A DNA stretch of 64,000 nt from Rubrivivax sp. Lineage in GTDB: Bacteria > Pseudomonadota > Gammaproteobacteria > Burkholderiales > Burkholderiaceae_C. The notes beneath the pieces were generated by a model. That model was not told the origin of the DNA, did not search any database, and saw nothing but the letters and a program-made list of their open reading frames with translations. The DNA lies in assembly GCA_022842305.1 (NCBI GenBank), contig JALHPY010000002.1, positions 1-64,000 of the forward strand. The letters are read 5' to 3'. The position numbers and the translations under genes are program-made. Every line of letters starts with the position of its first letter. The stretch's first letter is position 1. This document shows, one piece after another, positions 17,689 through 37,040 of the stretch.

Positions 17689-18142
17689 GATCTTTCTCCT
17701 GTAGTTCAAGGACAGGGCCTGCGGGCCGGCTGCTGCCGGGCGCGAGTGCCACTGCCCCTGTTTGTACGGGGCGCTTCGGGGCGCGTCTGTACGGTATCCG
17801 GGGCCGAAACTGCACGGCAGACCGCATAAAGCCTGCAATGCAAAAATGGTTTTACGCTCCTGGCGCTGAAAGGTCGTGAGAAAGGGCAACCAGCGCCCCC
17901 TCGAATGCGGGGGGTAAGGGCTGGTGCGAGATCTCGATGTATCCGGGTGAAGTCCGGGCTGTTGCAGGCCATTTGGGGCATTTCCCCCGGTCCGTCACAA
18001 GGGTTTACACCGGACCTGCGGGTGCGCACCAACGCGGTGCAGAGTGGGTCTTGATGGGACTGGAACTGGCCTCGCGGGCGAAATGTGCATTCGTAACAGA
18101 TCGTCGGGCGAGGTACTTGGGCCTGTCACAGTCGCTCTGTGG

Positions 18143-18166
18143 GTCGTGTCAGATTGATGACACGAC
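18143..18166. promoter_or_regulatory. perfect 9-bp-arm inverted repeat upstream of the glycan operon
   Basis: GTCGTGTCA-GATTGA-TGACACGAC, 14 nt before ATG 18181. Confidence 0.7.
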
Positions 18167-18180
18167 GACGAAGAGGGATC

Positions 18181-19518: not shown

Positions 19519-20759
19519 GCGTTCTGGTCAAGATCTACCCCAAGCTTTCGGAAACCTTCATCCTCGAAGAGATCCTGGGCCTGGAGCGACTGGGGCTGCC
19601 GCTGCGCCTGTACGCGCTGGCCCCGGCCACCGACACCATCACCCACCCGGCGGTGGCCGATGTCAAGGCGCCGCTGGTCACCCTGCCGGCGGCGGCGGGC
19701 AGCAAGCTGTGGAGCTTTGCCGCACGCCATGCGCAGCAGTTCCTGGCCGCACCGCTGCGCTACCTGGGCGCGCTGGCCTTCGCAGCCGGCCGCGGCCAGC
19801 AGGGTCTTCATGACTTCCTGCGCGCCGGCTGGCTGGCGCAGCAGCTTAAAGAAGACGGCGTGCAGCAACTGCACAGCCACTTCATCTCGTCGCCGGCCGA
19901 TGTGGCAGAGCTGGTGTCGCGCCTGTCGGCGCTGCCCTTCTCGATCTCGGCGCACGCCAAGGACATCTACCTGTCCGACCCGGCCGACCTGGCGCGCAAG
20001 ATGCACGCCGCGCGCTTTACCGTCACCTGCACCGAGGTCAACCGCCAGACGCTGGCGACCATCGCCCCCAGCGCGCCGCTGCAGCGCATGTACCACGGCG
20101 TGGACCACCAGTTGTTCCACCCCAGCCGCCGCAAGCTGGCCGGCACGGTGCCGCTGATCGTCAGCGTGGGCCGGCTGCGCGCCAAGAAGGGCCTGGACAC
20201 GCTGATCGACGCCTGCGCCCTGCTGCGCGAGCGCGGCGAACCCTTCCGCTGCGAGATCGTCGGCTACGGCGAAGAGCAGGATCGGCTGGTGGCGCAGATC
20301 CTGGCGCGCGGCCTGGGCCTGCATGTCCGCCTGGTGGGCAAGCTGGCGCGCGAGCAGGTGATCGACCGCTACGCCCACGCCGCCGTGTACGTGCAGCCCT
20401 CGCGCATTGCCGCCGACGGTGACCGCGACGGCATCCCCAACGTGCTCCTCGAGGCCATGGCCATGGGCGTGCCGGTGGTGGCCTCGCGCGTGTCGGGCAT
20501 ACCCGAGCTGGTGCAGGACGGCATCAACGGCGTGCTGGTGGAGCCCGACGACGCGGCCGCGCTGGCAGACGCCATGGCCGAGCTGATCCACCAGCCGGCG
20601 CGTTGCGCCGACCTGGGCTGCCGGGCGCGCGAGACAGTGACCGAGAACTTCGACAACGACCACAACCTGCGCCTGCTGTGCGGGCTGCTGCAGCGCCAGC
20701 CGCGCGCGCTGCCGGCCTCCGTCGCACTGACCGCCACTGCCCTGCGGAGCGTGAAATGA
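19482..20759 (+). CDS. glycosyltransferase family 4
   Basis: IGVLVKIYPKLSETFILEEILGLERLG...LIVSVGRLRAKKGLDTLIDACALLRERG...QPSRIAADGDRDGIPNVLLEAMAMGVPVVASRVSGIPELV. Confidence 0.9.
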   Translation: MESTQLQRERPIGVLVKIYPKLSETFILEEILGLERLGLPLRLYALAPATDTITHPAVADVKAPLVTLPAAAGSKLWSFAARHAQQFLAAPLRYLGALAFAAGRGQQGLHDFLRAGWLAQQLKEDGVQQLHSHFISSPADVAELVSRLSALPFSISAHAKDIYLSDPADLARKMHAARFTVTCTEVNRQTLATIAPSAPLQRMYHGVDHQLFHPSRRKLAGTVPLIVSVGRLRAKKGLDTLIDACALLRERGEPFRCEIVGYGEEQDRLVAQILARGLGLHVRLVGKLAREQVIDRYAHAAVYVQPSRIAADGDRDGIPNVLLEAMAMGVPVVASRVSGIPELVQDGINGVLVEPDDAAALADAMAELIHQPARCADLGCRARETVTENFDNDHNLRLLCGLLQRQPRALPASVALTATALRSVK

Positions 20760-22126
20760 GCACCCCGATCAACCAGGCCCTGGCCGCCGCCCTGCCCACG
20801 CACCCGTCCAGGCTGCCCAGCGGCAGCAGCGTGGCCTACGTGATGAACGGCTTTCCGCGCCTGTCGGAGACCTTCATCGCGCACGAGATCCACCAGCTCG
20901 AACAGGCCGGCATGCGCCTGCGCCTGTTCGTGGTGAAGCGCGAGAACGAGCCCCTGGTGCACCCGGTGGTCGACGCCATCCGCGCACCGCTGACCTACTT
21001 GTCCAAGGCCAGTTCGCTGTCGGGCACCACGCTCACTGGCTGGCTGCGCCGCAACCTGCCCACCTTTGCGCCCTTCCACCTGCGGCTGCTGGCGCGCCAC
21101 CCGTTGCGCTACCTGCGCACGCTGGGCTCGGCCGTGGCGCTGACGCGGCAACACTGGCCGCGCAAGGTGTTCATCAAGGAATTCCTGCAGGCCGGCGAGA
21201 TCGCCGCCACGGTGCTGGCCGATGGCACGGTGCAGCACCTGCACGGCCACTTCTGCCACGGCGTTGCCACCATCACCTGGTTTGCCAGCCAGCTGAGCGG
21301 CATACCCTTCAGCTTTACCGCGCACGCCAAGGACATCTACCAGGCCGAGCTCAACCCGGGCGACCTGCTCGAGCGCAAGCTGGGCGCGGCGCGCTTCGTC
21401 GCCACCTGCACCTGCGCCAACGCCGGCGTGCTGCGCGCGCGCCACGTGCGCCCGGATGAAGTGCACACCATCTACCACGGGCTGGATACCGACTACTTCT
21501 CGCCCGTCCAGCGCAGCACACCGCCGGTGGTGCCCATGATCCTGGCCGTGGGCCGGCTGGTCGAGAAGAAGGGCTTCGACCAGCTCATCGCCGCCTGCGC
21601 GCTGCTCAAGCGGCGTGGCGTGCACTTCAGCTGTGCCATCGTGGGCGAGAGCGGCAGCGCCGCCGACGCGCTGCGCGCGCAGATCACCGGGCTGGATCTG
21701 CAGGACACCGTGCTGCTGCGCGGCGCCGTCACGCAAGAGAAGCTGCGCGACATCTACCGCGGCGCGCACCTCTTTGCCCTGCCCTGCCAGATCATGGAAG
21801 ACGGCGACCGCGACGGTTTCCCCAACGTGCTGGCCGAGGCCATGGCCATGGGCGTGCCGGTGGTGTCCACCGCGATCTCGGGCATCCCCGAGATGATCGA
21901 CGACGGCGTGCACGGCCTGCTGGTGCAGCCGCGCGACCCCGCCGCCCTGGCCGATGCGCTGCAGCGCGTGCTGACCGACGCCGCTCTGCACCAGGCCCTG
22001 GCCCGTGCCGGCCGTGAGCGCATCTGCGAACGCTTCGACTCGCGCCGCACCACCCTGGCCCTGCGCGACCTGTTCCTGGCCCAGCTGGCGCAGCGCCAGC
22101 GCCTGCGCCAAGAGGCCACGGCATGA
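20756..22126 (+). CDS. glycosyltransferase family 4
   Basis: VAYVMNGFPRLSETFIAHEIHQLEQAG...ILAVGRLVEKKGFDQLIAACALLKRRG...GDRDGFPNVLAEAMAMGVPVVSTAISGIPEMI; ATGA overlap with the previous gene. Confidence 0.9.
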   Translation: MSTPINQALAAALPTHPSRLPSGSSVAYVMNGFPRLSETFIAHEIHQLEQAGMRLRLFVVKRENEPLVHPVVDAIRAPLTYLSKASSLSGTTLTGWLRRNLPTFAPFHLRLLARHPLRYLRTLGSAVALTRQHWPRKVFIKEFLQAGEIAATVLADGTVQHLHGHFCHGVATITWFASQLSGIPFSFTAHAKDIYQAELNPGDLLERKLGAARFVATCTCANAGVLRARHVRPDEVHTIYHGLDTDYFSPVQRSTPPVVPMILAVGRLVEKKGFDQLIAACALLKRRGVHFSCAIVGESGSAADALRAQITGLDLQDTVLLRGAVTQEKLRDIYRGAHLFALPCQIMEDGDRDGFPNVLAEAMAMGVPVVSTAISGIPEMIDDGVHGLLVQPRDPAALADALQRVLTDAALHQALARAGRERICERFDSRRTTLALRDLFLAQLAQRQRLRQEATA

Positions 22127-24165
22127 GCCTTGAGCCCCCAGAGAGCATCTACCTGCCGCCCTGGGCCGGCCTGGACGACGCCGCGCTGCTGGCGCACTTT
22201 CGCGGCCCGCGCGGGGTGTCGTACTACCCGGTGGCAGACCCCGAAGAAGTGAAGCCCGCGAAGATCGACGCGCTGCTGCAAGGCCTCTTCGAATTCAACG
22301 GCGAGACGCACGCGTTGGCCGAGCCGATCGACTGGCTCAGCAACCCCAGTGCCGACGTCGAGTGGCACATCCTGCTGCACAAGTTCTATTACGCCGTGGG
22401 CCTGGGCCTGGCCTGGCAACGCAGCGCCGACCCCGCCTACCTGCGCCGCTGGGTCGCGCTGATCGACGGCTGGATGCAGGTCACGCCGCTGGGCTTCATC
22501 GCCGCCGACGTGACCGGCCGGCGCGTGCAGAACTGGATCTACAGCCTGCACCTGCTGGTCGGCCATTCGGCCCACGACAGCACGCCGCTGATCCCGGCCG
22601 ACTTTCACCGCCGGCTGCTGCAGTCTCTGCACGACCAGGTCGAGTTCCTGTGCGCCAACCTCACGCCCAAGCGCAACCACCGCACGCTGGAGCTGTACGC
22701 CATCTTCCTGGCCGGGGTGGTGTTCCCCGAGATGCGGCGCTCGGCGCACTGGCGCGCCTTTGCGCTGGAGCAGACCGTGGCCAACCTGGCCGCCGACCTG
22801 CTGAGCGACGGCGTGCACTGCGAGCTGTCCACCGACTACCACCACCTGGTGCTGAAGAACGCGCTCAACTTCCGCCGCCTGGCCGCGCTCAATGGCGTGG
22901 CCGTTCCGCAATCCTTTGACCAGGTGCTGCAGCGTGGGCTGGAGTTCAGCCTGCACGCGCACAAGCCCGACGGCATCGTGCCCAGCCTGTCGGATGGCGA
23001 CGCCCGCGGCTTTCTCGACCTGCTGGCCCAAGGCGCCGAGCTGTTCGGCCGCGCCGACATGCTGTATGTGGCCACACAGGGCCGGCAGGGCACGGCGCCG
23101 GCGCAGCGCGTGGCGCATTTCGACGCCAGCGGCTACAGCATCGTGCGCAGTGGCTGGGGCCAGGGCGCCACGCCCTACGCCGACGAACACTACCTGGTCT
23201 TCGACCACGGCCCGCTGGGCGAAGGCAACCACGGCCACTTCGACTGCCTGAGCTTCGAGTTGGCAGCGCATGGCCGCTCGCTCATCGTCGACCCCGGCCG
23301 CTACACCTACAGCGAGGCCGTGAACCCGGCCGACGGCATCAACTGGCGCGTGCGCTTCCGCGGCACGGCGGTGCACAACACCGTGTGCGTGGACGGCCGC
23401 CAGCAGACGAGCTACCTGCCCAAGGCCATCAAGCCGGGCACGCGCCACGCCATCGGCACGGTGCGCCACAAGATCAGCGGCCCGGCGCCCGAGGCCCGCC
23501 TGCTGGAGCAGCGCCAGGGCGCCACGCTGGACCTGGTGCACGGCCAGGCGCGCAGCCACGAATACGACGCGGTGCACGAGCGCTGCATCGCCTTCGTCGA
23601 CCGGCGCTACTGGATCGTCAGCGACTGGCTGCGTGCCGAAACCCAGCACGACTACCGGCTCAACTTCCAGCTCGGCATACAGGCCCAGGGCCAGGCGCGA
23701 CTGGAGTGGGACCACGGCTGGCGCATGTCCAGCCCGGGGCTTGTTCTGCTGCAGCCGCAGCGCAAGGGCGTGCACACGCGCCTGGTGCGGAGCTGGGTTT
23801 CTGCGCGCTACGGCGACAAGCAGGCCGCCCCGGCGCTGCAGTCCACGCTGCGTGCACGCAACGCCGATTTCGACAGCGTGCTGCTGCCCTGGCAGGGCAG
23901 CGAACCGGCCTGCCGGCTGGAAGAAGTGGCGGTGGAAGGCGGCCCGGCGGCACTGCGCATCACGTTGCAGGTGGATGGCCGGGAGGTCACCGACCACTGG
24001 TTCCATGCGCGCGGCGCGCAAGCCGAGCAATGGCGCATCGCCGGTTTCACGTTCAGCGGCCGCTGGGCCTGGTGGCGCGTGGGCGCCGACGATCGCCTGC
24101 TGGCCGCGCAATCGCATGAAGGCGCCAGCCTGCCGCTGGCCCTGACCGCGCTGGAGCCGGTATGA
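22123..24165 (+). CDS. heparinase II/III family protein (alginate-lyase-like superfamily)
   Basis: WLSNPSADVEWHILLHKFYYAVGLGLAW...NHRTLELYAIFLAGVVFPEM...YHHLVLKNALNF...FDHGPLGEGNHGHFDCLSFELAAHGRSLIVDPGRYTYSEA...HNTVCVDGRQQ; ATGA overlap. Confidence 0.88.
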   Translation: MSLEPPESIYLPPWAGLDDAALLAHFRGPRGVSYYPVADPEEVKPAKIDALLQGLFEFNGETHALAEPIDWLSNPSADVEWHILLHKFYYAVGLGLAWQRSADPAYLRRWVALIDGWMQVTPLGFIAADVTGRRVQNWIYSLHLLVGHSAHDSTPLIPADFHRRLLQSLHDQVEFLCANLTPKRNHRTLELYAIFLAGVVFPEMRRSAHWRAFALEQTVANLAADLLSDGVHCELSTDYHHLVLKNALNFRRLAALNGVAVPQSFDQVLQRGLEFSLHAHKPDGIVPSLSDGDARGFLDLLAQGAELFGRADMLYVATQGRQGTAPAQRVAHFDASGYSIVRSGWGQGATPYADEHYLVFDHGPLGEGNHGHFDCLSFELAAHGRSLIVDPGRYTYSEAVNPADGINWRVRFRGTAVHNTVCVDGRQQTSYLPKAIKPGTRHAIGTVRHKISGPAPEARLLEQRQGATLDLVHGQARSHEYDAVHERCIAFVDRRYWIVSDWLRAETQHDYRLNFQLGIQAQGQARLEWDHGWRMSSPGLVLLQPQRKGVHTRLVRSWVSARYGDKQAAPALQSTLRARNADFDSVLLPWQGSEPACRLEEVAVEGGPAALRITLQVDGREVTDHWFHARGAQAEQWRIAGFTFSGRWAWWRVGADDRLLAAQSHEGASLPLALTALEPV

Positions 24166-25562
24166 GCACCACCCTGCCGCAAGACCCGCAACTGCCACAG
24201 CTGCCCACGGCGCTGGACGGCGCGGCCATGGCGCCGGTGTTCGCCGGCATGCTGCGGGGACCTGAGCTGCTGAGCTGCGAGGTCGACCGCGTCAAGTACC
24301 GGCCGGGTCGCAGCTGCAGCGTGAGCTACCGGCTGCGCCTGCTGGACGCGCAGCGCGGCGAGTTCGAGCAGCGTGTTTCGGCTCGCTTCTGCAGCGGTGG
24401 CGACGCGCAACGCCGCTTCGAGCAGGCCGGCCAGCGCGGCGGGCGCCAGTCGCCGGCCGGGCCCGCGCTGCAGCACGACGCGGCGCTGGACATGATGGCC
24501 TGGTGGCTGCCCAACGACCCCAAGCTGGAGGCGCTGGCCCTGCTGTGCAACGACGCCGAACTGCGCCGGCGCAGCCTGGGCGAGGTGGTGGCCCTGCTCA
24601 CCGGCGGCCGCGGTCGCCTGCTCGAGCACCGCACGACCCTGGTGCAGGTGGTGCCCGAGCTGCGCGTGTGCGCGCGCGTCGAGCTCACGCTGCAGGACGA
24701 GCCCGGCGCGCCCACGCTCCAGCGCACGCTCTACGTCAAGGCCGACGTCGAGCGCAGCGGCGCACAAACCCGCGCCGTGATGCAGGCGCTGAGCAACAGC
24801 CCGGCCCAGGCCGCCGGGCGGCTGAGCACGCCGCGCTCGCTGCTGTGGCAGGCCGACACGGGGCTGCACTGGATCTCGGCCCTGCCCGGCCGGCCGCTGC
24901 TGGAAGACGACCCGCAGATCCGCGCCGCATCTTCCATGCGCGTGGCACGCCAGCTGGCGCTGCTGCACGCCACGCCAGTGCCGGCCGGCCCGCGCGTGCT
25001 CGACCTGGCCGCGCTGCGCGCGCAGCGCGCCAAGGCGGTGGCCCTGCTGGCCCAGGTGCAACCCGCCTGGCAGCCGCTGCTCACGCGCCTGGCCGACGCG
25101 CTGCAGGCCGGCGAGCACCTGCTCGACGGCATGCCCCTGGCCACGCTGCACGGCGACCTGCACCCCAACAACATCCTGGTCGACGCACGCAACGGCAGCT
25201 GGCGCCAGGCCTTCATCGACCTGGACGACGTGCAACAAGGGCCGGCCGTGCTCGAAGTGGGCGGCTGGATCGCCGACGCCTACTACCGCGGCATCCTCGA
25301 TGGCCACGCGCCGGCCGCGGTGTCGGCCTCGGCCGACCTGTTCCTGGCGGCGTACGTGCAGGCCGCGGGCCAGCCCTTGGACGCCGCGGCGCTGGCCTGG
25401 GGCGCGGCCCACCACCTGCTGTGCCGCCGCGCCTGCGGCGGCGTGGCCAACCTGAAGCCTGGCCGCTTTGCCGCCGTGCCGGCGCTGCTGGAGCTGGCCC
25501 TGACCATCGCGCGTTCGGGCTCGGTGGACGCGGCGCTCAACGACGCCAGCGAGGCCGCATGA
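24162..25562 (+). CDS. phosphotransferase (APH/choline-kinase-like fold)
   Basis: LATLHGDLHPNNILVDARNGSWRQAFIDLDDVQQGPAVLEVGGWIADAY; kinase-like HGDxxxxN and DxD; ATGA overlap. Confidence 0.78.
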   Translation: MSTTLPQDPQLPQLPTALDGAAMAPVFAGMLRGPELLSCEVDRVKYRPGRSCSVSYRLRLLDAQRGEFEQRVSARFCSGGDAQRRFEQAGQRGGRQSPAGPALQHDAALDMMAWWLPNDPKLEALALLCNDAELRRRSLGEVVALLTGGRGRLLEHRTTLVQVVPELRVCARVELTLQDEPGAPTLQRTLYVKADVERSGAQTRAVMQALSNSPAQAAGRLSTPRSLLWQADTGLHWISALPGRPLLEDDPQIRAASSMRVARQLALLHATPVPAGPRVLDLAALRAQRAKAVALLAQVQPAWQPLLTRLADALQAGEHLLDGMPLATLHGDLHPNNILVDARNGSWRQAFIDLDDVQQGPAVLEVGGWIADAYYRGILDGHAPAAVSASADLFLAAYVQAAGQPLDAAALAWGAAHHLLCRRACGGVANLKPGRFAAVPALLELALTIARSGSVDAALNDASEAA

Positions 25563-26929
25563 TGGCCACCGATCAGGGCGGCGCGGCGGCCGTGCCCGGC
25601 ACCGACGCCCTGCCGCTGGACCAGTACAGCGACGCCGTCGCCATGCTGCCGCTGCTGCAGGCACAGCTGCCCGGCTTTGGCGACGGCGGCCTGCGCATCA
25701 CCGGCATTCGCGTGCATGCGGCGCGCCGCAGCACCTCGCGCGAGCGCAACCCCGTTCCCTTGAGCCTGTGCTACGAGCTGCAGGTGAGCGACACGCTGAC
25801 CGGCCGCAGCGGCACGCAGACCTGCTTTGCGCAGGTCTACCGGCCCGGCCTGGCCCAGGTAGCGCATGCCCGCGTCGATGCCCGCCAGCTGGAGCGCCCG
25901 GCCTTCGGTGAGCCACTGGTGTTGCTGCCGGCGCTGAACCTGCTGCTGTGGGCCCTGCCCAACGACCCCGACATGCCGCACCTGCCTGCGCTGCTGGACC
26001 CGGCGCGCGCGCTGCAGGCGCTGCCCCCGGCCTGCGGCGCCGAGGTCGGCGACACACTGCAGGTCGAACTGCTGCGCTACGCGCCACAACGCCGCGCCAC
26101 GCTGCGTTACACCCTGGCGGCCGGCAACGAACGGCCCGAGCGAGCCGTGTACGCCAAGACCTTCTTCGACCAGCGCGCGCGCGACATCCACCAGCGCTTC
26201 GACTACTTCTGGCAACTGGCGCAGCGCGACCCGCAAGCGCCGCTGGTGGCCGAGCCCCTGGGCTACGACGCTGCCACCCACAGCGTCTGGCAGGCCAGCG
26301 CGCAAGGCCTGCCGCTGCTGCAGGCGCTGGCCACCCCGCAGGCGCCGCAACTGATGGAACGCGTGGCGCAGGCGCTGGCGCTGCTGCATGCCGCGCCCCT
26401 GCAACCCAGCGCGGACGCCGCGCCGCACTCGGTGCCGCACTGGCTGGCCGAGGTGAGCCGGCGGCGCAACAAGCTCGACCGCATCAAGCCTGCGCTGGCC
26501 GAGCGCACGGCGCGCATCGCCGCCACCCTCACCGCCCAGGCGGCGCGGCCCGCGCAGCGCCCGCTGAGCCTGATCCACGGCGATTGCCATCCTGACCAGC
26601 TATGGGTGCACGAAGGCCGCATCGTGCTCTTCGACTTCGACGAGTTCACCTTGGGCGACCCCATGGAAGACCTGGCCAGCTTCGTGCTGAAGCTCGAACA
26701 GGCCGATCTGCCCGAAACCCTGGGCCGCACGCTGGTGCGCGCCTACGCGGCCGCCGCGCCGCAACGCTTCAACGCCCAGAGCCTGGCCTGGCACCTGGCC
26801 ATCCAGAGCCTGCTGCAGGTCAGCCGCGCCTTCATCTTCCAGCGGCCGGGCTGGGCCGAAGAGCTGGAGCGCCGGCTCGCCGCCGCCGAAACCCGCACCC
26901 TGGCGCTGCAGCTTTCGCACCCCGCATGA
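25559..26929 (+). CDS. phosphotransferase (APH-like fold), paralogue of the preceding gene
   Basis: LSLIHGDCHPDQLWVHEGRIVLFDFDEFTLGDPMEDLASFVLKLE; shares W/LPNDP segment with the upstream protein; ATGA overlap. Confidence 0.78.
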   Translation: MMATDQGGAAAVPGTDALPLDQYSDAVAMLPLLQAQLPGFGDGGLRITGIRVHAARRSTSRERNPVPLSLCYELQVSDTLTGRSGTQTCFAQVYRPGLAQVAHARVDARQLERPAFGEPLVLLPALNLLLWALPNDPDMPHLPALLDPARALQALPPACGAEVGDTLQVELLRYAPQRRATLRYTLAAGNERPERAVYAKTFFDQRARDIHQRFDYFWQLAQRDPQAPLVAEPLGYDAATHSVWQASAQGLPLLQALATPQAPQLMERVAQALALLHAAPLQPSADAAPHSVPHWLAEVSRRRNKLDRIKPALAERTARIAATLTAQAARPAQRPLSLIHGDCHPDQLWVHEGRIVLFDFDEFTLGDPMEDLASFVLKLEQADLPETLGRTLVRAYAAAAPQRFNAQSLAWHLAIQSLLQVSRAFIFQRPGWAEELERRLAAAETRTLALQLSHPA

Positions 26930-28713
26930 AGAGCCTGCGTTCATCCCCCCTGGGCAAGGTCATCAGCGACTGCCTGCAGGCCCAGCGCGGCAGCGTGCTG
27001 CTGGCCTGCCTGTGCCTGCTGGGCGTGATCGCCATGGACCTGATCGCGCCCTGGCCGCTGAAGGTGGTGTTCGACCACCTGCTGCTGCCGCACCCGCTGC
27101 CGCCGGCGCTGTCGCCGCTGCAAGGCCTGCTGGCCATGGGCACCTGGCCGGCGCTGCTGGCCATGGCCGGCGCCATCGCGGCCATTGCGCTGCTGGCGGG
27201 CGTGTTCTCGTACCTGCAGTTGTTCACCACCGCCAAGATCGGCTACATCATCACCTACCGGCTGCGCAGCCAGCTGTTTTCGCACCTGCAGCGCCTGTCG
27301 CTGGCCTATCACCGCGGCAGCCGCAGCGGCGAGTTGCTGACCAAGGTGGCCAGCGACACCAACCAGCTGCGCGACATGTTCGCCGACTGGGCACTGAGCT
27401 TCGCCGCCCAGCTGCTGACCCTGATCACCATGCTGGGCGTGATGTTCTGGCTGAACTGGCGCCTGGCCGCCGTGGTCACGGCCACGCTGCTGCCGCTGAT
27501 GGGGGTGATCTACTTTCTCAACAAGCGCGTCAAGGAATCGGTGCGCGACCAGCGCAAGTACGAAGGCCGCATGACCTCGCGCCTGAACGAGGTGCTGTCG
27601 TCGATTGCGCTGGTGCAGGCCTTCGGCCGCCAGACCTATGAAGAGGGCCGCTTCGAGGCCGAGATCAAGGCCCACTATGAAAGCGGCATGCGCAGCACAC
27701 GCACGGCCGGCGCCATCACCAAGGCCATCGCCGTGGTGTGCGCCAGCGGCACCGCGGCCACCGTGCTGCTGGGCGCGCAGCAGGTGCTGGCCGGCAAGCT
27801 GACGCCGGGCGAGCTGCTCATCTTCCTGGCCTACGTGGGCAGCCTGTTCAAGCCGGTACGCGACCTGGGCAAGCTCTCGGCCAAGTTCTCGCGCGCCGCG
27901 GTCAGCGCGCAGCGCGTCAACCAGATCCTGGAGACCGCGCCCGAGATCGACGACGCGCCCGACGCCATCGACATCGGCCGCCCGGCCGGCGAGATCGTGT
28001 TCGAGGACGTCTGCTTCGGCTACGCCGAAGGGCGCCCGGTGCTGGACGGGGTGTCGCTGCGCATCGCCGCGGGCGAGCGCGTGGCCCTGGTCGGGCCTTC
28101 GGGGTCGGGCAAGTCGACGCTGCTGTCGCTGCTGCTGCGCCTGTACGAGCCCAGCAGCGGCCGCATCCTGATCGATGGCATCGACATCCGCCGCTTCACG
28201 CGCGAAAGCCTGCGCCGTGCCATCGGCATCGTGCCGCAGGAGAACATGCTGTTCGCCGTGTCGGTGCGCGAGAACATCGCCTACGGCCACCCGCAGGCCA
28301 CGCCCGAAGAGATCGAAGAGGCCGCGCGACATGCGCGCGCTCACGAGTTCGTGGTGGACCTGCCCGAGGGCTACGACACCGAGGTGGGCGAACGCGGGGG
28401 CAATCTTTCAGGCGGCCAGCGCCAGCGCCTGTGCCTGGCGCGTGCGCTGGTCAAGGCGCCGTCCATCCTGGTGATGGACGAGCCCACGGCATCGGTCGAC
28501 GCGGTCTCGGCCCGGCTCATGACCGAGGCCGTGGCCCGCGTGCACCGCAACCGCACGCTCATCACCATCTCGCACGAGTACTCCGACATGTCCACCTACG
28601 ACCGCATCTTCGTGCTCGAACAGGGCCGGCTGGTCGAATCGGGCGCGCACGACGCGCTGATCCAGGCGCGCGGGCCCTACCTGGCCCTGGTGGAGCGCCG
28701 CCATGCCGTCTGA
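26926..28713 (+). CDS. ABC transporter, fused permease/ATPase (MsbA-like exporter)
   Basis: Multiple TM segments then VALVGPSGSGKSTLLSLLLRLYEPSSGRILIDGIDI...NLSGGQRQRLCLARALVKAPSILVMDEPTASVDAVS...TISHEYSDM. Confidence 0.93.
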   Translation: MKSLRSSPLGKVISDCLQAQRGSVLLACLCLLGVIAMDLIAPWPLKVVFDHLLLPHPLPPALSPLQGLLAMGTWPALLAMAGAIAAIALLAGVFSYLQLFTTAKIGYIITYRLRSQLFSHLQRLSLAYHRGSRSGELLTKVASDTNQLRDMFADWALSFAAQLLTLITMLGVMFWLNWRLAAVVTATLLPLMGVIYFLNKRVKESVRDQRKYEGRMTSRLNEVLSSIALVQAFGRQTYEEGRFEAEIKAHYESGMRSTRTAGAITKAIAVVCASGTAATVLLGAQQVLAGKLTPGELLIFLAYVGSLFKPVRDLGKLSAKFSRAAVSAQRVNQILETAPEIDDAPDAIDIGRPAGEIVFEDVCFGYAEGRPVLDGVSLRIAAGERVALVGPSGSGKSTLLSLLLRLYEPSSGRILIDGIDIRRFTRESLRRAIGIVPQENMLFAVSVRENIAYGHPQATPEEIEEAARHARAHEFVVDLPEGYDTEVGERGGNLSGGQRQRLCLARALVKAPSILVMDEPTASVDAVSARLMTEAVARVHRNRTLITISHEYSDMSTYDRIFVLEQGRLVESGAHDALIQARGPYLALVERRHAV

Positions 28714-29866
28714 GCGCCCGCGCCTGCTGTTCTACTGCCAGCATTCGCTGGGCATTGGGCACCTCACACGCTCGTTCGCACTGGCCACGTCGCTGGCCGA
28801 GCGCTTCCGCGTGGTGTTTCTGAACGGCGGGCGCCTTCCGCCGGGCCTGCCGGTGCCGCGCGACATCGAGATCATCGACCTGCCGCCGCTGGGCATGGAC
28901 GACGGCCACACCCTCATCAGCCGCGATGCCAAGCAGGGTGTTGCGCAGGCCATGGCGCAGCGCCGCACGTTGATTGAAGCTGCTGTGCACGAGCACCGGC
29001 CGGCGGTGGTGCTGGTGGAGCTGTTCCCCTTCGGCCGCAAGAAGTTCGCCGCCGAGATCCTGGCGCTGATGCGCCTGTCCAGGCGCCAGGCCGGCGGCCC
29101 GGCGCGCGTGGTCTGCAGCCTGCGCGACATCCTGGTCGACGCCCGCCCCGACCAGCAGCGCCACGACGACCGCGCGCGCGGCCTCACCGACCGCTATTTC
29201 GACGCCGTGCTGGTGCACGCCGACCCGGCGCTGGCGCGGCTGGAAGACAGCTTCAAGCCCAGCCGCCCGATGCGCACGCCGGTGCACTACACCGGCTACG
29301 TGGTGCCGGCGCGCGCCGCCCAGGCGGCACCGGTGCGCGGCGCGCATCTGCTGGTGTCGGCCGGCGGCGGGATCGTCGGTGACGCGCTGTTCCGGTGTGC
29401 GCTGCAGGCGCGGGCGCTGCTGCCCGAGCCGCCGCCGCTGCGCATCATCGCCGGGCCTTTCCTGCCCGAGGCGCAATGGTTTGCGCTGCAGGCCGCCGTG
29501 CAGGGCCAGCCCGGCGTGGAACTGCTCCGGCAGGTGCCCGACATGGTGGCCGAGATGCGCCAGGCGCGTGCCTCCCTCAGCCAGTGCGGCTACAACACCG
29601 CGCTGGACATCATCGTGGCCCAGGTGCCGGCGCTGGTGGTGCCATATGCCACCGTCACCGAAAACGAGCAGAGCGAGCGCGCCACCCGCCTGGCCGAGCT
29701 GGGCGCGCTGCAGCAGCTGGACCCGGCGCAGCTGGACCCGCAGCACCTGGCCGCCGCGATGCAGGCCCTCCTGCAGTTCACACCGCGCCCCGCCGCATTG
29801 GCGCTGGACGGCGCCGACTGCAGCGCCAGGCTGATCGCGCAACTGCACGCGGAGCGCACGGCATGA
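28703..29866 (+). CDS. glycosyltransferase, MurG/GT28-like
   Basis: RLLFYCQHSLGIGHLTRSFALATSLAERFRVVFLNGG...HYTGYVVP...LLVSAGGGIVGDALFR...ASLSQCGYNTALDIIVAQVPALVVPYATVTENEQSERATRL. Confidence 0.8.
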   Translation: MPSERPRLLFYCQHSLGIGHLTRSFALATSLAERFRVVFLNGGRLPPGLPVPRDIEIIDLPPLGMDDGHTLISRDAKQGVAQAMAQRRTLIEAAVHEHRPAVVLVELFPFGRKKFAAEILALMRLSRRQAGGPARVVCSLRDILVDARPDQQRHDDRARGLTDRYFDAVLVHADPALARLEDSFKPSRPMRTPVHYTGYVVPARAAQAAPVRGAHLLVSAGGGIVGDALFRCALQARALLPEPPPLRIIAGPFLPEAQWFALQAAVQGQPGVELLRQVPDMVAEMRQARASLSQCGYNTALDIIVAQVPALVVPYATVTENEQSERATRLAELGALQQLDPAQLDPQHLAAAMQALLQFTPRPAALALDGADCSARLIAQLHAERTA

Positions 29867-30627
29867 CCGGCCGCTGGGACGCCCTGATCGCAGCGCTGGA
29901 CGCGGCGCCTGCGCCGGTGGACTTCTTCCTGCGCGACGACGACACCGGCTGGGACGACGCCAGCCTGTTTGCACTGCTCGACTGCACCGGCACCGCCGGC
30001 GTGCCGTTGGACCTGGCGGTGATCCCCCAGGCCACCGGCGTCGCGCTGGCCCGTGCGCTGCGCCTGCGCCACGCCGCGGCGCCGCGCCTGATCGGCCTGC
30101 ACCAGCACGGCTTTGCCCATACCAACCACGAGACCACCGAACGCAAGTGCGAGTTCGGCCCCTCGCGCGCACTCGATGCCCAGCGTGCCGACCTGGCCGC
30201 CGGCCGGGCGCTGCTGCTGGACCGCTTCGGCGACCAGCTCGACCCCTTCTTCACCCCGCCCTGGAACCGCTGCAGCCCTGGCACGCCGGCGCTGCTGGCC
30301 GAGCTGGGCTTTGCCGCGCTGTCGCGCAGCCGCGGCGCGCCGGCCCAGCAGGCGCTGCCAGAACTGCCGGTGGACGTGGATTGGTGCAAGCACCAGCGCC
30401 AGGCGCGCGAAGGGGCCGAGCCCGAAGGCCCGCGCGTGGCGCAAGAACTGGCGCGACGCGTGGCCGCCGGTGGCCCGGTGGGCCTGATGCTCCACCACGC
30501 GGCCATGGACGCGGCCGACCTGGCGCTGCTGGCCGAACTGTTGCCCCTGAGCACCCAGCACCCGCGCGTGCACTGGTGGCCCATGCGCGAACTGCTGGCG
30601 CGCGGCGTCGCAGTAGCTACTTCCTGA
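29863..30627 (+). CDS. polysaccharide deacetylase family protein
   Basis: VDFFLRDDDTGWDDASLFALLDC...LIGLHQHGFAHTNHE...LDPFFTPPWNRCSPGTPALLAELGFAALSRS; NodB-like DD and HxxxH-type motifs. Confidence 0.8.
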   Translation: MTGRWDALIAALDAAPAPVDFFLRDDDTGWDDASLFALLDCTGTAGVPLDLAVIPQATGVALARALRLRHAAAPRLIGLHQHGFAHTNHETTERKCEFGPSRALDAQRADLAAGRALLLDRFGDQLDPFFTPPWNRCSPGTPALLAELGFAALSRSRGAPAQQALPELPVDVDWCKHQRQAREGAEPEGPRVAQELARRVAAGGPVGLMLHHAAMDAADLALLAELLPLSTQHPRVHWWPMRELLARGVAVATS

Positions 30628-30640
30628 TCGAAAGCCTGCC

Positions 30641-32101
30641 GTGATGCTCCGCTCTGCCCTGTTCGCTGCCCTGTCCTGCTGCTTCGGGGCAGCGCACTCT
30701 CAGCCCGCGCCCGCCGCGGCCGAGCCCGAGATCGCCACGCCGGCGCCGCGCTCGGTGTCGCAGCGGCCCGACGAGCGCCGCGCCGAGAACCCCTTCACGG
30801 TGCAGATGTTCGGCCGCCCGGTCGAACTGGGCATGAGCTACGAAGGCTCTGTCGAACAGCGCCGCAACTTCGACCTGAACGGCGAGCGCAACCGCGACCG
30901 CGACGTCGCCAGCCACGAACTCAAGATCGACGCGCGCTGGAAGACCGCCGAACACACCACCTGGTTCCTGCAGGGCGTGGGCCTGTCCGACCGCCGCCGC
31001 TCGCGCAGCGACCGCACGGTGCAGCAACAGGAATCGGCCGAACGCGGCCAGACCTGGGTGATGTGGGAACAGCTGGGCGAGTACCCGCTGTCCATCCAGC
31101 TGGGCCGCATCGCGCTGCTGGAGCGCCGCTCATGGTGGTGGGATGAAGACCTGGACGCGGTGCGCGTGGTCTACAAGCCCGACAACTTGAAGCTCGAAAC
31201 CGGCCTGGCGCGCGAACTGATGCGGGTGTCTTCGGCCACGCGCGAGATCGACCCCCAGCAGAAGGCGGTGAAGCGCTGGTTCGGCAACCTGAACGTGCGC
31301 CTGGCGCCGCGCCACACCCTCGACTTCTTCTGGCTGCTGACCGACGACGACTCGCGCGCGCCCGCGCCCGGCAGCCTGTTCAACGAAGGCGAGGAAGATG
31401 CCTCTGACGGCCGCCTGCGCTGGTTCGGCATGCGCAGCAGCGGCGAGGTGCGCTTCGAGAGCAAGCACCGCTGGACCTACCGTGCCGACCTGGCCATGGT
31501 GCGCGGCCGCGAGTTCGTCACCGATTTCAGCACCACGGCCGCAGGCCAGCTGAGCGCCGGGGCCACCACGCGGCGCAACGTGAGCGGCCACGCCTGGGAC
31601 CTGGGCACGCAGTGGGTGTTGCCCGGCAGCCTGCGCCCGACCTTCAGCCTGGGCCTGGCCCAGGGCTCGGGCGCGCCGGGCACGGCCACGCAGGACAACA
31701 GCTTCCGCCAGACCGGCCTGCACGAGAACAAGGGCCGTATCGGCGGCGTCAAGCGCATGCGCTACTACGGCGAACTGCTCGACCCCGAACTGTCCAACCT
31801 GCGCGTCGCCACGGCCGGCTTCGGCCTGCGCCTGCTGGCCAACACCTCCATCGAGGTGGTGGTACACAAGTACCGCCAGCAGTTTGCCGACACGCGCATC
31901 GCCAACTCGCGCCTGTCGCAAGACCCCGAAGGCCTGAGCCGCGACATCGGCCACGAGGTCGATGTGCTGCTGGCCTCGCGCGAATGGCGGCAGTTCGAGC
32001 TGACGGTCACCTTCTCCAACTTCTACCCGGGCGAGGCCTTCGCCGAGGACCGCCGCACCGTGGCCCAGGGGGTGGAGCTGGGCATCGCGCTGAACTTCTG
32101 A
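30641..32101 (+). CDS. AlgE-like (alginate export family) outer-membrane beta-barrel protein
   Basis: Signal peptide MMLRSALFAALSCCFGAAHS; LGMSYEGSVEQRRNFDLNGERNRDRDVASHELKIDARWKTAEHTTWFLQGVGL...LGRIALLERRSWWWDEDLDAVRVVY...; ends in aromatic IALNF as in OM barrels. Confidence 0.75.
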   Translation: MMLRSALFAALSCCFGAAHSQPAPAAAEPEIATPAPRSVSQRPDERRAENPFTVQMFGRPVELGMSYEGSVEQRRNFDLNGERNRDRDVASHELKIDARWKTAEHTTWFLQGVGLSDRRRSRSDRTVQQQESAERGQTWVMWEQLGEYPLSIQLGRIALLERRSWWWDEDLDAVRVVYKPDNLKLETGLARELMRVSSATREIDPQQKAVKRWFGNLNVRLAPRHTLDFFWLLTDDDSRAPAPGSLFNEGEEDASDGRLRWFGMRSSGEVRFESKHRWTYRADLAMVRGREFVTDFSTTAAGQLSAGATTRRNVSGHAWDLGTQWVLPGSLRPTFSLGLAQGSGAPGTATQDNSFRQTGLHENKGRIGGVKRMRYYGELLDPELSNLRVATAGFGLRLLANTSIEVVVHKYRQQFADTRIANSRLSQDPEGLSRDIGHEVDVLLASREWRQFELTVTFSNFYPGEAFAEDRRTVAQGVELGIALNF

Positions 32102-32270
32102 GCCCGCGCGCTGTATCAGGCGCCGCCCGCCGCACTCTGTCGGGTGTCGCGCACCCCCGGGTCACTGCCCGCCCTCCGAGCAGGCATTCCAGCGACGCAG
32201 CTCCCGAGATGGTGCATCGCGGAGCGCCAATCCAGCAGGTGCCGTCGCGCGCTGCCCACCGGGGGTGAAG

Positions 32271-33650
32271 ATGAAGCTGACGATCGTGGGCACGGGCCTG
32301 GCGGGCCTGGTAGCAGGCGCAGGACTGGCCGAACTGGGCAATGAGGTGCTGTGCGTAGATCCCGATCAGACGCGCATCGCCCGCCTGCAACGGGGGGATC
32401 TTCCGCTGCTGGAGCCGGGCCTGGCCGAACTGATGGCCCGCCACGTGGCTTGCGGGCGGCTGCGCTTCAGCACCGATCTGCGTGAAGGCGTGGGCTTCGG
32501 CGCCGTGCAGGTCATCGCGGTGGAAACGCCGGCCGACAAGCAGGGCGCCATCGACATGCAGCAGATGCTGGTGGCGGCCTACCGCATCGGCCTGTACATG
32601 AACGACTACAAGCTGGTGGTCGACAAGAGCACCGGCCCAGTGGGCAGCGCCGACGCCGTGCGCGCAGCCATCAGCGCCGGCCTGGCCGAGCGTGGCGTGG
32701 ATCTGGGCTTCGACGTTGTCAGCAACCCCTGCTTTGCGCCCGAGGGCACGGCGCTGCAGGACTTCCTGAACCCGGCGCGCATCGTGGTCGGCGCCGACGC
32801 CGCGCGCGCCGTGGAGCTGATGCAGGCGCTGTACGCGCCGCTGCGGCGCACGCGCGAGCGCCTGGTGCTGATGGACATCCGTTCGGCCAAACTCTCCAAG
32901 TACGCGGCCAGCGCCATGCTGGCCGCGCGCCTGAGCGTGATGAACGAGATCGCGGGCCTGGCCGGGAAGCTGGGCGCCGACATCGAACAAGTGCGCCGCG
33001 GCCTGGCCGATGACCCGCGCATCGGCGCGCAGCACCTGGCCGCCGGCTGCGGCTGGGGCGGCGAGGGCCTGCCCAAGGACCTGACGGCCCTGCAGCAGAT
33101 GGCGCAATGGGTGGGCGAGCCGCTGCCGCTGCTGGGCGCGGTGACGCGCGCCAACGAACGCCAGAAACTGCTGCTGGTGGAGCACGTGGTCGAGCGTTTC
33201 GGCGAAGACCTGCAGGGCCGGCACTTCGCCCTGTGGGGCCTGGCCCACCAGCCCGGCAGCAGCGAGCTGCGCGAGGCCCCCAGCCGCGTCGTCATCCACG
33301 AGTTGCTGCGCCGCGGCGCCACCCTCTGCGCGCACGACCCCCAGGCCCTGGCCGAGGCACGGCGCGTTTTCAACGGCGTGCCCGGCATCGGCTTTGCCGC
33401 CACGCCGCTGGACGCCGCCATCGACGCCGACGCGCTGCTGCTGCTGACCGACTGGAACGACTACCTGGCGCCTGACTTCGACGCGCTGCAGGCTGCGCTG
33501 CGCCGCCCCATGATCTTCGACGGCCGCAACCTGTACGTGCCCGAGCAGATGCGCGGCCTGGGTTTCGACTACATCTCGATCGGCCGGCCGGCGCAATGGG
33601 CCGCCGAAGCCGTCGACTCGGTGCACATCGACCTGCCCCTGGCCGCATGA
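32271..33650 (+). CDS. UDP-glucose/GDP-mannose dehydrogenase family protein lacking the canonical catalytic Cys
   Basis: MKLTIVGTGLAGLVAGAGLAELGNEVLCVDPDQTRIARLQRGDLPLLEPGLAEL...VVDKSTGPVGSADAV...GAQHLAAGCGWGGEGLPKDLTAL...FDGRNLYVPEQMRGLGFDYISIGRP. Confidence 0.88.
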   Translation: MKLTIVGTGLAGLVAGAGLAELGNEVLCVDPDQTRIARLQRGDLPLLEPGLAELMARHVACGRLRFSTDLREGVGFGAVQVIAVETPADKQGAIDMQQMLVAAYRIGLYMNDYKLVVDKSTGPVGSADAVRAAISAGLAERGVDLGFDVVSNPCFAPEGTALQDFLNPARIVVGADAARAVELMQALYAPLRRTRERLVLMDIRSAKLSKYAASAMLAARLSVMNEIAGLAGKLGADIEQVRRGLADDPRIGAQHLAAGCGWGGEGLPKDLTALQQMAQWVGEPLPLLGAVTRANERQKLLLVEHVVERFGEDLQGRHFALWGLAHQPGSSELREAPSRVVIHELLRRGATLCAHDPQALAEARRVFNGVPGIGFAATPLDAAIDADALLLLTDWNDYLAPDFDALQAALRRPMIFDGRNLYVPEQMRGLGFDYISIGRPAQWAAEAVDSVHIDLPLAA

Positions 33651-34780
33651 AACCCCGCATCCTGTACTACTGCCAGAGCCTGGTCGGCATCGGCCACCTG
33701 AGCTGCAGCCTGCGCATCATCCAGGAACTGCTGCCGCACTGCGATGTCGACCTGGTCTATGGTGGACTGGATACCGGCACGCCGCTGGTGCAGCCCGGCC
33801 TGCGCAGCCTGCGTCTGGCCACGCTGCTGCACGATGAAGACAGCGGCGAGTTCTTCGCCCCCGATGACCTGCGCCCCATCACCGAGATCTGGGTCGACCG
33901 CGCCCAGGCCATCGCCGGCTTCCTGCGCATGCCCTACCAGGGCATCGTGGTCGAGTTCTACCCCTTCGGCCGGCGCCGCTTCAAGGACGAGATCCTGGGC
34001 CTGGTGCGCGCGGTGCATGCCGCCTGCGGCGCGGTGCCGGTGTTCAGCTCGGTGCGCGAGGTGCTGGTGCCGCGCCCGGTCGAGAACGAACGGCGCATGC
34101 TCGCGTCGGTGAAGAAACACATCCACACCGTGTTCGTGCGCGGCGACCCCGATGTGATCCGCTTCGACGAGACCTTCTCGCTGGCGCCCGAGCTGGGCGA
34201 CAAGCTCTGCTACACCGGCTACATCAGCCCGCCGCCGCCTGCCAGGCGGCCGGCACGCAAGCAGCAGGTGCTGGTCAGCCAGGGCGGCGGCAACGTCGGC
34301 CGCGAACTGCTGGTGGCCGCCATCGGCACGGCCGCGCTGATGCCGCAGCTGCACTTTCTGCTGGCCTGCGGCTCGCGCACCCTGCCCGAGGAGATCGAAT
34401 CGCTGCGTGCCCAGGTGCGCAGCGCCAACGTCGAGATCGTGCCCTTCCTGGCGGACTTCATGCGCCACCTGATGGAGTCGGCCGCGTCCATCAGCATGGG
34501 CGGCGACAACACCTTGCTGGACGTGCTGCGCGCGCGCACGCCAGGCCTGGCCTATCCGTACCAGGACAACCCCGAGCAGGGCATCCGCATCCGCAAGTTC
34601 GCCGAGAAGGGCCTGATGCACGAGCTGGGCCCCGCCGACCTGCAACCCGAGCGGCTGAAGGCGCGCATCGAGCAAGCACTGCAGGCGCCCTACCCCACCC
34701 AGACCGTGCGCATGAACGGCGCGCGCGAAACCGCCGACCGCATCCGCGCCACCATCGCCCAGACCACCGCAGCCGCATGA
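33647..34780 (+). CDS. glycosyltransferase, MurG/GT28-like
   Basis: RILYYCQSLVGIGHLSCSLRIIQELLPHCDVDLVYGG...CYTGYISPP...VLVSQGGGNVGRELLVAAIG...ASISMGGDNTLLDVLRARTPGLAYPYQDNPEQGIRIRKF; overlaps neighbours. Confidence 0.8.
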   Translation: MKPRILYYCQSLVGIGHLSCSLRIIQELLPHCDVDLVYGGLDTGTPLVQPGLRSLRLATLLHDEDSGEFFAPDDLRPITEIWVDRAQAIAGFLRMPYQGIVVEFYPFGRRRFKDEILGLVRAVHAACGAVPVFSSVREVLVPRPVENERRMLASVKKHIHTVFVRGDPDVIRFDETFSLAPELGDKLCYTGYISPPPPARRPARKQQVLVSQGGGNVGRELLVAAIGTAALMPQLHFLLACGSRTLPEEIESLRAQVRSANVEIVPFLADFMRHLMESAASISMGGDNTLLDVLRARTPGLAYPYQDNPEQGIRIRKFAEKGLMHELGPADLQPERLKARIEQALQAPYPTQTVRMNGARETADRIRATIAQTTAAA

Positions 34781-36228
34781 ACCCGGTGCGCGCCGAGAAC
34801 GCCCGGCCCGGCACGGCCGACTGGGCGCTGCAGCGGCCGGCGCTGGGGCGCGAGATCGAGGGCTACGCCAGCGCCTGCAGCGTCAACCGCGGCGACAGCA
34901 TCGCCCTGTACGTCAACACCCACGCGCCCCGCTACGTGCTGGAGGTGTTCCGCATGGGCTGGTACCAGGGCCTGGGCGCGCGCCGATTCCTGGGGCCGGT
35001 CACCCTGCCAGGCATTGCCCAGCCCATGCCCGAGATGGACCCCGACACCGGGCTGGTGGACTGCGCCTGGCTCGCTCCTCATGCGCTGCGCACGGCCGAC
35101 GCACAGCATCCCGAGGGCTGGCCCAGCGGCGTCTACCTGGCGCGGCTCACGGCGTCTGGCAGCGGTGCGCAGAGCTACATCTTCTTCGTGGTGCGCGACG
35201 ACGCACGCACGCCGGCATTGCGCATGCAACTGGGCGTGACCACCTACCAGGCCTACAACGCCTGGGGCGGCAAGTCGCTGTACCACTGGGGCAGCAGCGG
35301 CGGCCAGCGCGCCAGCCGCGTGTCATTCAACCGGCCCTACGCCGCGAATGCGCAGAACCCGGCGGCCGCGTACGGGATGGGTGCGGGCGAGTTCCTCACC
35401 AACGTCCAGCCCCACCCCGACCACTACGGCCCCCGCAACGCCGCCTGGGACTGCAACCTGCTGCGCTGGCTGGAGCACGAGGGCTGCGACGTGGCCTACT
35501 GCACCAACCTCGACACGCACGCCGACGCCGCCATGCTGCGCCGGTGCAGCGGCTGGCTGTCCAGCGGCCACGACGAGTACTGGACGCTGGCCATGCGCGA
35601 CCACATCGAAGCCGCACGCGACGCCGGCATCAACCTGGGTTTCTTCACCGCCAACGCCGCCTACTGGCAGGTGCGGCTGGAGCCCAGCGCGGCCACCGGC
35701 CAGGCCGACCGCATCATGGTCTGCCACAAGAAGGCCAAGGCCGACCCGCTGTTCCGCAGCCAGCCGCGGCTGGCCACCGACAAGTGGCGCAGCGCCGCCG
35801 TCGGCCGGCCCGAGGAGCAGCTGATTGGCGTGATGTACTGCGCCGACCCGGTGGACGGCGACATCGTCGTCACGCGCCCGGATCACTGGGTGTTTGCCGG
35901 CACCGGCCTGCGCGCCGGCGATCGCCTGCCCGGGCTGCTGGGCTACGAGGTCGACGCGGCCCAGGGTGGCGGGCCGGCCGGCCTGGAGATCCTGGCCGAA
36001 TCCCCGTGGACCGCGATGAATGACCCCGCCCAGCAAGGCGTGGCGCACATGAGCGTCTACACCGCGCCCAGCGGTGCCGTGGTGTTTGCCACCGGCAGCA
36101 TCCAGTGGGCCTGGGGCTTGGACGACTACAACGCGCCCGGCCTGCGCTCTTCACGCCTGAGCGCCGCGGCCCAGCAGATCACGCGCAACGTGCTGCAGCG
36201 CCTGGGCGGGCGCAACAAAGCTACATGA
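34777..36228 (+). CDS. N,N-dimethylformamidase beta-subunit-like domain protein
   Basis: IEGYASACSVNRGDSIALYVNTHAPRYVLEVFRMGWYQGLGARRF...GVTTYQAYNAWGGKSLY...DHYGPRNAAWDCNLLRWLEHEGCDVAYCTNLDTHAD...SGHDEYWTLAMRDHIEAARDAGINLGFFTANAAYWQVRLE. Confidence 0.75.
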   Translation: MNPVRAENARPGTADWALQRPALGREIEGYASACSVNRGDSIALYVNTHAPRYVLEVFRMGWYQGLGARRFLGPVTLPGIAQPMPEMDPDTGLVDCAWLAPHALRTADAQHPEGWPSGVYLARLTASGSGAQSYIFFVVRDDARTPALRMQLGVTTYQAYNAWGGKSLYHWGSSGGQRASRVSFNRPYAANAQNPAAAYGMGAGEFLTNVQPHPDHYGPRNAAWDCNLLRWLEHEGCDVAYCTNLDTHADAAMLRRCSGWLSSGHDEYWTLAMRDHIEAARDAGINLGFFTANAAYWQVRLEPSAATGQADRIMVCHKKAKADPLFRSQPRLATDKWRSAAVGRPEEQLIGVMYCADPVDGDIVVTRPDHWVFAGTGLRAGDRLPGLLGYEVDAAQGGGPAGLEILAESPWTAMNDPAQQGVAHMSVYTAPSGAVVFATGSIQWAWGLDDYNAPGLRSSRLSAAAQQITRNVLQRLGGRNKAT

Positions 36229-36886
36229 CGAAGCCGTCGACCCACTGCCCCGTCTTGCTGCCGCTGAGCGTGCCGGTGGCGATGGCCGCCGCGGTGCCCG
36301 GCGCGCCCGGCTCGACGCGGTAGAAGAACTTGTTGCGCAGGCGGATCTCGGGCCAGCGCTCGCGCGGCCAGGCCAGCAGCGTGCCCAGCAGCACGCGGTT
36401 GGTGGCGCGGTGGCCCACCACCAGGATGCGCTGGCCCCGGTGGCGCTGCAGCAGGGTCTGCAAGGCCTCTTCCACGCGCTGGGCGAAGACATCGAAGCGC
36501 TCGCCGCCGGGCACGCCCGGGCCCCAGGGGTCGGCCGCCCACTGGGCCCACAGGGTCTGGGCCTCGGGGTCGGTCTCGTCGCGGTGGCGGCCCTGCAGCA
36601 CGCCCATGTGGATTTCGTTGAGCGCGGGCAGCGAGACGATGGCCAGCCCCCTGGTCGTGGCCGTGGGCTGGGCCGTGGCCACGGTGCGCTGCAGTGCGCT
36701 GGCGTAGATGGCGGCCAGCGGCTCCTGCGCCAGGCATTGCGCCAGCGCCGCGCTCTGCAGCTGGCCCTTGGGTGACAGGCCCGGGTCGAGCTGGCCCGTG
36801 ACCAGGCCCTGGTTGTTCCATTCGCTCTGGCCGTGACGGGCGATGTAGAGGATGGTGGCCGACTCGGCCGTGGAAACTGCACTCAT
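36221..36886 (-). CDS. histidine phosphatase family (phosphoglycerate mutase-like) protein
   Basis: ATILYIARHGQSEWNNQGLVTGQLDPGLSPKGQLQSAALAQCL...ILVVGHRATNRVLLGTLL; RHG motif. Convergent 8-bp overlap with upstream CDS end. Confidence 0.88.
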   Translation of the reverse strand: MSAVSTAESATILYIARHGQSEWNNQGLVTGQLDPGLSPKGQLQSAALAQCLAQEPLAAIYASALQRTVATAQPTATTRGLAIVSLPALNEIHMGVLQGRHRDETDPEAQTLWAQWAADPWGPGVPGGERFDVFAQRVEEALQTLLQRHRGQRILVVGHRATNRVLLGTLLAWPRERWPEIRLRNKFFYRVEPGAPGTAAAIATGTLSGSKTGQWVDGFVM

Positions 36887-37040
36887 GGAGGTCAACGCGC
36901 GGGCCAAGGGCCCGGTGCCAGCTGGTTCGGTGATTGCCTGCATTGTCTACGGCCGCGAGCCAGGGCTCCGCTCCCCCAAGCCCGGCGTGCTGGCGCCCCA
37001 AGCCTCACAATGACGCAGCCACACCCACCAAGGCAATGCC

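Follow-up and report, generated by a model that had tools for sequence, protein, structure and literature searches.

The window, the whole 64,000-nucleotide stretch of Rubrivivax sp. DNA that was analysed, carries a polysaccharide cluster that closes, directly after its alginate-export-family gene, with a gene for a UDP-glucose dehydrogenase (UGD) homologue without the catalytic cysteine, here called UGD'. The features are listed below. Residues are numbered as in S. pyogenes UGD unless stated otherwise.

18139-30627, + strand: rest of the polysaccharide cluster (from Pfam and comparison with counterpart clusters), with the genes on the next seven lines
18139-19518, + strand: GT28-like gene
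20603-22126, + strand: GT4 glycosyltransferase
22123-24165, + strand: heparinase II/III-like gene
24162-25562 and 25559-26929, + strand: two APH-like genes (kinases)
26926-28713, + strand: ABC exporter
28703-29866, + strand: GT1, a GT28-like glycosyltransferase
29863-30627, + strand: uncharacterised gene without a Pfam match
30641-32101, + strand: alginate-export-family outer-membrane protein; in six genomes the gene that follows it directly is UGD or UGD'
32102-32270, no strand assigned: leader separating the alginate-export gene from UGD' (from comparison with Rubrivivax sp. A210)
32271-33650, + strand: UGD', Cys-less UDP-glucose dehydrogenase homologue of 459 aa (Pfam, NCBIfam, AF2 model)
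32298-32300, + strand: Leu10 at the Tyr10 position, Ser in A210 (alignment)
32730-32732, + strand: Cys154 (tgc), in SNPCFAPEG, at the Glu141 position; A210 has Glu instead (alignment)
32889-32912, + strand: helix alpha-9 motif with Glu201 replaced by Lys207 (window only), Lys204 retained and Asn208 replaced by Ser214 (also in A210) (alignment)
33066-33068, + strand: Gly266 (ggc) at the position of the catalytic Cys (Cys260 in S. pyogenes, Cys276 in human) (homologue alignment)
33246-33272, + strand: FKPxTDDMR changed to HQPGSSELR, with Lys320 replaced by Gln327 and Phe by His326, both also in A210 (alignment)
33597-33647, + strand: C-terminal tail of UGD', residues 443-459, predicted to be disordered and ending DSVH[I/V]DLPLAA like A210 (AF2 model, tail comparison)
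33647-34780, + strand: GT2, a GT28-type glycosyltransferase whose ATG overlaps the UGD' stop (ATGA)
34777-36228, + strand: DMFA2_C-domain protein, 4-bp overlap with GT2

The UGD' reading frame extends from an ATG at 32271 to a stop at 33648-33650 and encodes 459 residues with no internal stop; a GTG at 32265 is a possible alternative start. PF03721, PF00984 and PF03720 matched in that order with 159, 87.7 and 76 bits, each above its cut-off, and TIGR03026, the NDP-sugar dehydrogenase subfamily model, scored 328.6 bits (cut-off 189.8). The TuaD-type NCBIfam equivalog scored 365 bits, below a cut-off of 700 that is TuaD-specific and makes this result weak by itself. The best solved relative was the B. 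cepacia UGD BceC (~52% identity over the full length, E = 1e-139). An AF2 model of UGD' had a mean pLDDT of 89.3 and was confident for residues 1-442, and a Foldseek search with it returned BceC chains as the top PDB matches (TM about 0.93). By descent and fold, UGD' is a member of the UDP-glucose/GDP-mannose dehydrogenase superfamily.

The first-pass annotation had reported that the catalytic Cys was replaced by Gly, and both the codon (ggc, 33066-33068) and the coordinates were correct. Gly266 lies in GCGWGGEGLPKD. We collected 141 homologues, and all 140 canonical ones that cover the site have Cys there, whereas the window protein and its homologue in Rubrivivax sp. A210 have Gly. Cys260 is likewise invariant across the 229 NDP-sugar dehydrogenases of a published alignment, which defined 18 invariant residues and assigned roles to Tyr10 and others in addition (PMC4794789). 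The substitution is thus not chance variation in a loose motif. The change of NPEFLREG to NPCFAPEG was also confirmed, with the new Cys at 32730-32732 replacing Glu. The earlier statement that other motifs are retained stood for the Rossmann loop and the DGRN loop; the STxPVG segment has a Val to Gly change.

The damage to the active site is wider than that first reading suggested, as Tyr10, Glu201, Asn208 and Lys320 are also gone. Out of Glu141, Glu201, Lys204, Asn208, Lys320 and Tyr10, only Lys204 is retained (as Lys210). In the S. pyogenes scheme, Tyr10 acts in thioester hydrolysis, Asn208 and Lys204 stabilise the C6 oxygen, and Lys320 coordinates the UDP diphosphate (PMC4794789). UGD' does have the general base Asp264 (as Asp270) and the trans-acting Arg244 (as Arg250), together with the Rossmann-loop glycines (GxGxxG), Asp29, Thr83, Ser117, Thr118, Glu145, Asn219, Gly257, Gly258, Asn287, Arg327 and the DGRN loop. 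In all, the window protein lacks 5 of the 18 invariant residues and the A210 copy lacks 6. By its residues, UGD' would not pass as a functional UDP-glucose 6-dehydrogenase (EC 1.1.1.22). The Cys thioester mechanism is lost with Cys260, as had been proposed, and by the established chemistry of the family four-electron oxidation would be very unlikely.

The second Cys-less protein was found in a scan of species genomes. It is encoded in Rubrivivax sp. A210, which belongs to the same genus as the window species in the genome set used (L035, 10001-11383); it is 62% identical to UGD' and reads GCGYGGTGLSRD at the site. Asn208, Cys260 and Lys320 are replaced identically in the two copies (by Ser, Gly and Gln), as is the Phe before that Lys (by His), and Tyr10 is gone from both. 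Further common replacements at near-invariant columns are Thr to Ser, Ile to Leu and Glu to Asp, and both copies end in the tail DSVHxDLPLAA. These shared replacements indicate that the loss predates the divergence of the two copies. Sequencing error is very unlikely, given the number of independent codons that differ and the occurrence of several identical replacements in another species. The A210 copy has Glu141 and Glu201 and has lost Lys204, Thr83, Ser117 and Arg327; 38 of 113 near-invariant columns are altered in one or both copies.

In the tree, both Cys-less copies have long branches and are sisters at 100/100, nested in a clade of UGDs that follow an alginate-export gene. A clade sharing Gly at the site, suggested earlier as a check, exists. 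Each copy also grouped in this same cluster-UGD clade when the other was removed, a result that argues against their having been drawn into it by long-branch attraction.

The comparison with A210 bears on whether UGD' could have acquired a different chemistry. Cys154 as a relocated catalytic Cys common to the clade was ruled out, since A210 keeps Glu at that position. The first-pass annotation had also offered a two-electron oxidoreductase, and one could imagine such an enzyme, or an aldehyde dehydrogenase, acting on an NDP-sugar with no covalent intermediate. Human UGDH C276A could still oxidise added aldehyde intermediate (PMC3184952), which by analogy might leave room for this activity, and the window protein has Lys204, Asp264, Thr118 and the NAD-site residues. 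However, Asn208, Lys320 and Tyr10 are gone from both homologues, Glu141 and Glu201 from the window protein, and Lys204, Thr83, Ser117 and Arg327 from A210. A conserved new chemistry should keep a common set of residues, and none was seen. Two-electron chemistry by UGD' would be unlikely on these residues, and we give this explanation of the gene very little credence.

We then considered where the two copies lie. In the counterpart clusters of five genomes (G332, G092, G396, G400 and G475), a canonical UGD directly follows the alginate-export gene, in G475 with an NAD-dependent epimerase-family gene after it; a further four species of the genus lack a UGD at this position. The entire window cluster is present in A210, at 75-93% identity, but just 257 bp separate the alginate-export gene from GT2 there. 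This gap aligns with the leader (32110-32233) at 79% and then continues into GT2, showing that UGD' is missing from the A210 cluster. The A210 copy of UGD' is instead located outside the polysaccharide cluster, beside a copy of GT2 (GT2b). GT2b (L035, 11410-12468) is a degenerate glycosyltransferase that has lost the GIGH-type motif and has a branch length of 1.19; in A210 a putatively dead dehydrogenase and a putatively dead glycosyltransferase are thus side by side.

Several other observations were made on the cluster. The leader segment 32110-32233 (L142, 15882-15998) is 79% conserved with A210 although UGD' is gone there, and it holds a palindrome, GGGTGTCGCGCACCC, with GGGTG/CACCC arms that is possibly a regulatory site or a terminator. 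The gene at 29863-30627, between GT1 and the alginate-export gene, matched no Pfam family even with a cut-off of E 0.1; it was present in all clusters examined and by eye resembles a polysaccharide deacetylase. The cluster at 18139-32101 is apparently undescribed and occurs in conserved form in several genera of the family (L117, L118, L119, L142, L175-L179); the literature on Leptothrix/Sphaerotilus sheath genes contained nothing matching it. Separable from it is a conserved module of GT2, the DMFA2_C gene and a phosphoglycerate-mutase-family gene (window 33647-36943; L230; L231), with an ABC gene preceding the mutase gene in the L231 variant. The -LAA end is mostly present on the UGDs of this cluster, both canonical and Cys-less (window 33597-33647; L007, L008, L009, L189). 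It occurs in 8 of 143 UGDs, six of them from this lineage. It resembles a ClpXP/ssrA-type degron and might permit regulated proteolysis; a tmRNA, looked for in the window genome in connection with a tmRNA-like degron, was not recovered.

The overlaps between UGD' and GT2 and between GT2 and the DMFA2_C gene resemble a working operon. We tried the idea that UGD' and GT2 form an obligate pair, as GT2 orthologues in the genus were at first found only in the two species with UGD'. This was rejected: G134 and G400 have GT2 and the DMFA2_C gene without an adjacent UGD. GT2 consequently does not need UGD', and the link between the two is weak.

Loss of the catalytic residues with a retained fold could also reflect slow decay. 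In this explanation, the presence of a second, canonical UGD relaxed selection on the cluster copy, which lost its function and drifts, with no stops yet. We regard this as the main rival and as unlikely, though it has a real case. Both branches are long, many conserved positions are altered, the in-cluster copy has been precisely deleted in A210, and the copy that remains there lacks NAD-contact residues and adjoins GT2b, whose dN/dS is about 0.9. We estimated substitution rates between the window and A210 by the Nei-Gojobori method. The dN/dS of the UGD' pair was 0.41 (0.32-0.52), about 0.42 per lineage, and that of the canonical UGD pair from the same two species was 0.42; these ratios are approximate, as a GC3 of about 0.9 puts dS near its ceiling and dS is near saturation between genera. 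Apparent purifying selection along with residue loss and a retained fold was seen in more than one lineage, in two species of a single clade, with dS near saturation. UGD' is constrained where its neighbour GT2b, with its dN/dS near 0.9, is not. About 2% of single-base changes in UGD' are nonsense, and by our estimate roughly twenty stops would be expected under neutral drift at the observed synonymous divergence, whereas none is present. Both Cys-less reading frames are intact, with a GC3 of 0.89-0.90, that of UGD' (0.90) being like its neighbours. The loss also dates to before the divergence of the copies, which speaks against slow decay. The earlier judgement that the protein is probably not decayed held up, given the intact frame, the normal GC3, the dN/dS of about 0.42 in both lineages and the occurrence of the loss in two species. 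The dS of the UGD' pair was 0.71 (0.58-0.85) compared with 0.23-0.46 for eleven cluster orthologues, suggesting that the UGD' copies are paralogous and separated before the two species did, although the GC-rich third positions put this dS near its ceiling.

A canonical UGD lies on another contig in both Cys-less genomes, as a check proposed earlier found for the window genome (L001, GGSCFPKD). UGD' might then be a prozyme-like partner that forms a hetero-dimer with the active canonical UGD and tunes it by supplying the trans-acting Arg (Arg244 in S. pyogenes, Arg260 in human). Both homologues retain this Arg despite the loss of cis catalytic residues, and in human UGDH it couples the two active sites of the dimer (PMC3184952), which may by analogy favour such a partnership. 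Against it, the dimer helix of UGD' shows no special conservation towards the canonical UGD of its own genome (59%, compared with 78-94% among canonical enzymes), and we consider this explanation decidedly unlikely.

On balance, we lean towards UGD' being a retained pseudoenzyme, a former UGD of the cluster that has taken on a non-catalytic role. It would descend from the UDP-glucose dehydrogenase that belonged to the polysaccharide cluster itself and be unable to make UDP-glucuronate, the production of which would fall to the canonical UGD on the other contig. It would be translated together with GT2 and retained as a folded protein, probably a dimer, with a role that needs no catalysis; it might serve as a scaffold, or regulate sugar-nucleotide supply or assembly at the locus in response to a ligand. 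Among the three options originally put forward (a two-electron oxidoreductase, a nucleotide-sugar sensor or a structural subunit), a structural or regulatory role is the best-supported. Several findings count against the pseudoenzyme reading: just two members are known, both long-branched; A210 has no in-cluster copy; its relocated copy lacks the NAD contacts Thr83, Ser117 and Arg327; and that copy adjoins a degenerate glycosyltransferase. A bolder version, in which UGD' is the first non-catalytic NDP-sugar dehydrogenase subunit and sets the UDP-glucuronate supply for the cluster's polymer, either in mixed oligomers with canonical UGD or bound to GT2, seems quite unlikely.

We asked how widespread such proteins are. 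A DNA-pattern search of 401 genomes of the family and 399 of the order, with a pattern that covers Gly at the site only, found no other UGD with the Cys to Gly change; besides the window gene there were three matches, all by chance and outside UGD genes. In a sample of 81 genomes of the genus, the best 30 matches were fetched, and those that entered the alignment all had Cys. In a plasmid collection, the best matches were about 52-53% identical, which is typical of ordinary UGDs. A limited search of the open-access literature yielded no account of a UGD without the Cys. With two species so far, Cys-less UGDs appear to be a rare variant within a known superfamily. The clade has lost Cys260 and three more active-site residues and, though duplicated and relocated, is apparently still subject to purifying selection; it offers a natural test of the non-catalytic roles of the UGD fold, such as dimer cross-talk, ligand sensing and scaffolding. 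The case also calls for caution in annotation, as TIGR03026 and Pfam both label UGD' a nucleotide sugar dehydrogenase.

Among known systems, BceC (PDB 2y0c/2y0d/2y0e) resembles UGD' in fold (TM about 0.93), in sequence (52% identity) and in its three domains and Rossmann and DGRN loops, but its Tyr10, Glu, Asn, Cys and Lys are replaced in UGD' by Leu, Cys, Ser, Gly and Gln, respectively. The AdoMetDC/prozyme pair of T. brucei is similar in that a dead paralogue occurs beside an active one; complex formation is shown for that pair (PMC6221367), whereas for UGD' a complex would be hypothetical. The nearest relatives are the canonical UGDs in the same slot of the counterpart clusters (G332, G092, G396, G400 and G475), at 60-62% identity. 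Like UGD', they have the alginate-export gene upstream, and four of the five end in -LAA; unlike UGD', they have an intact GGSCFPKD motif and no losses among the other catalytic residues.
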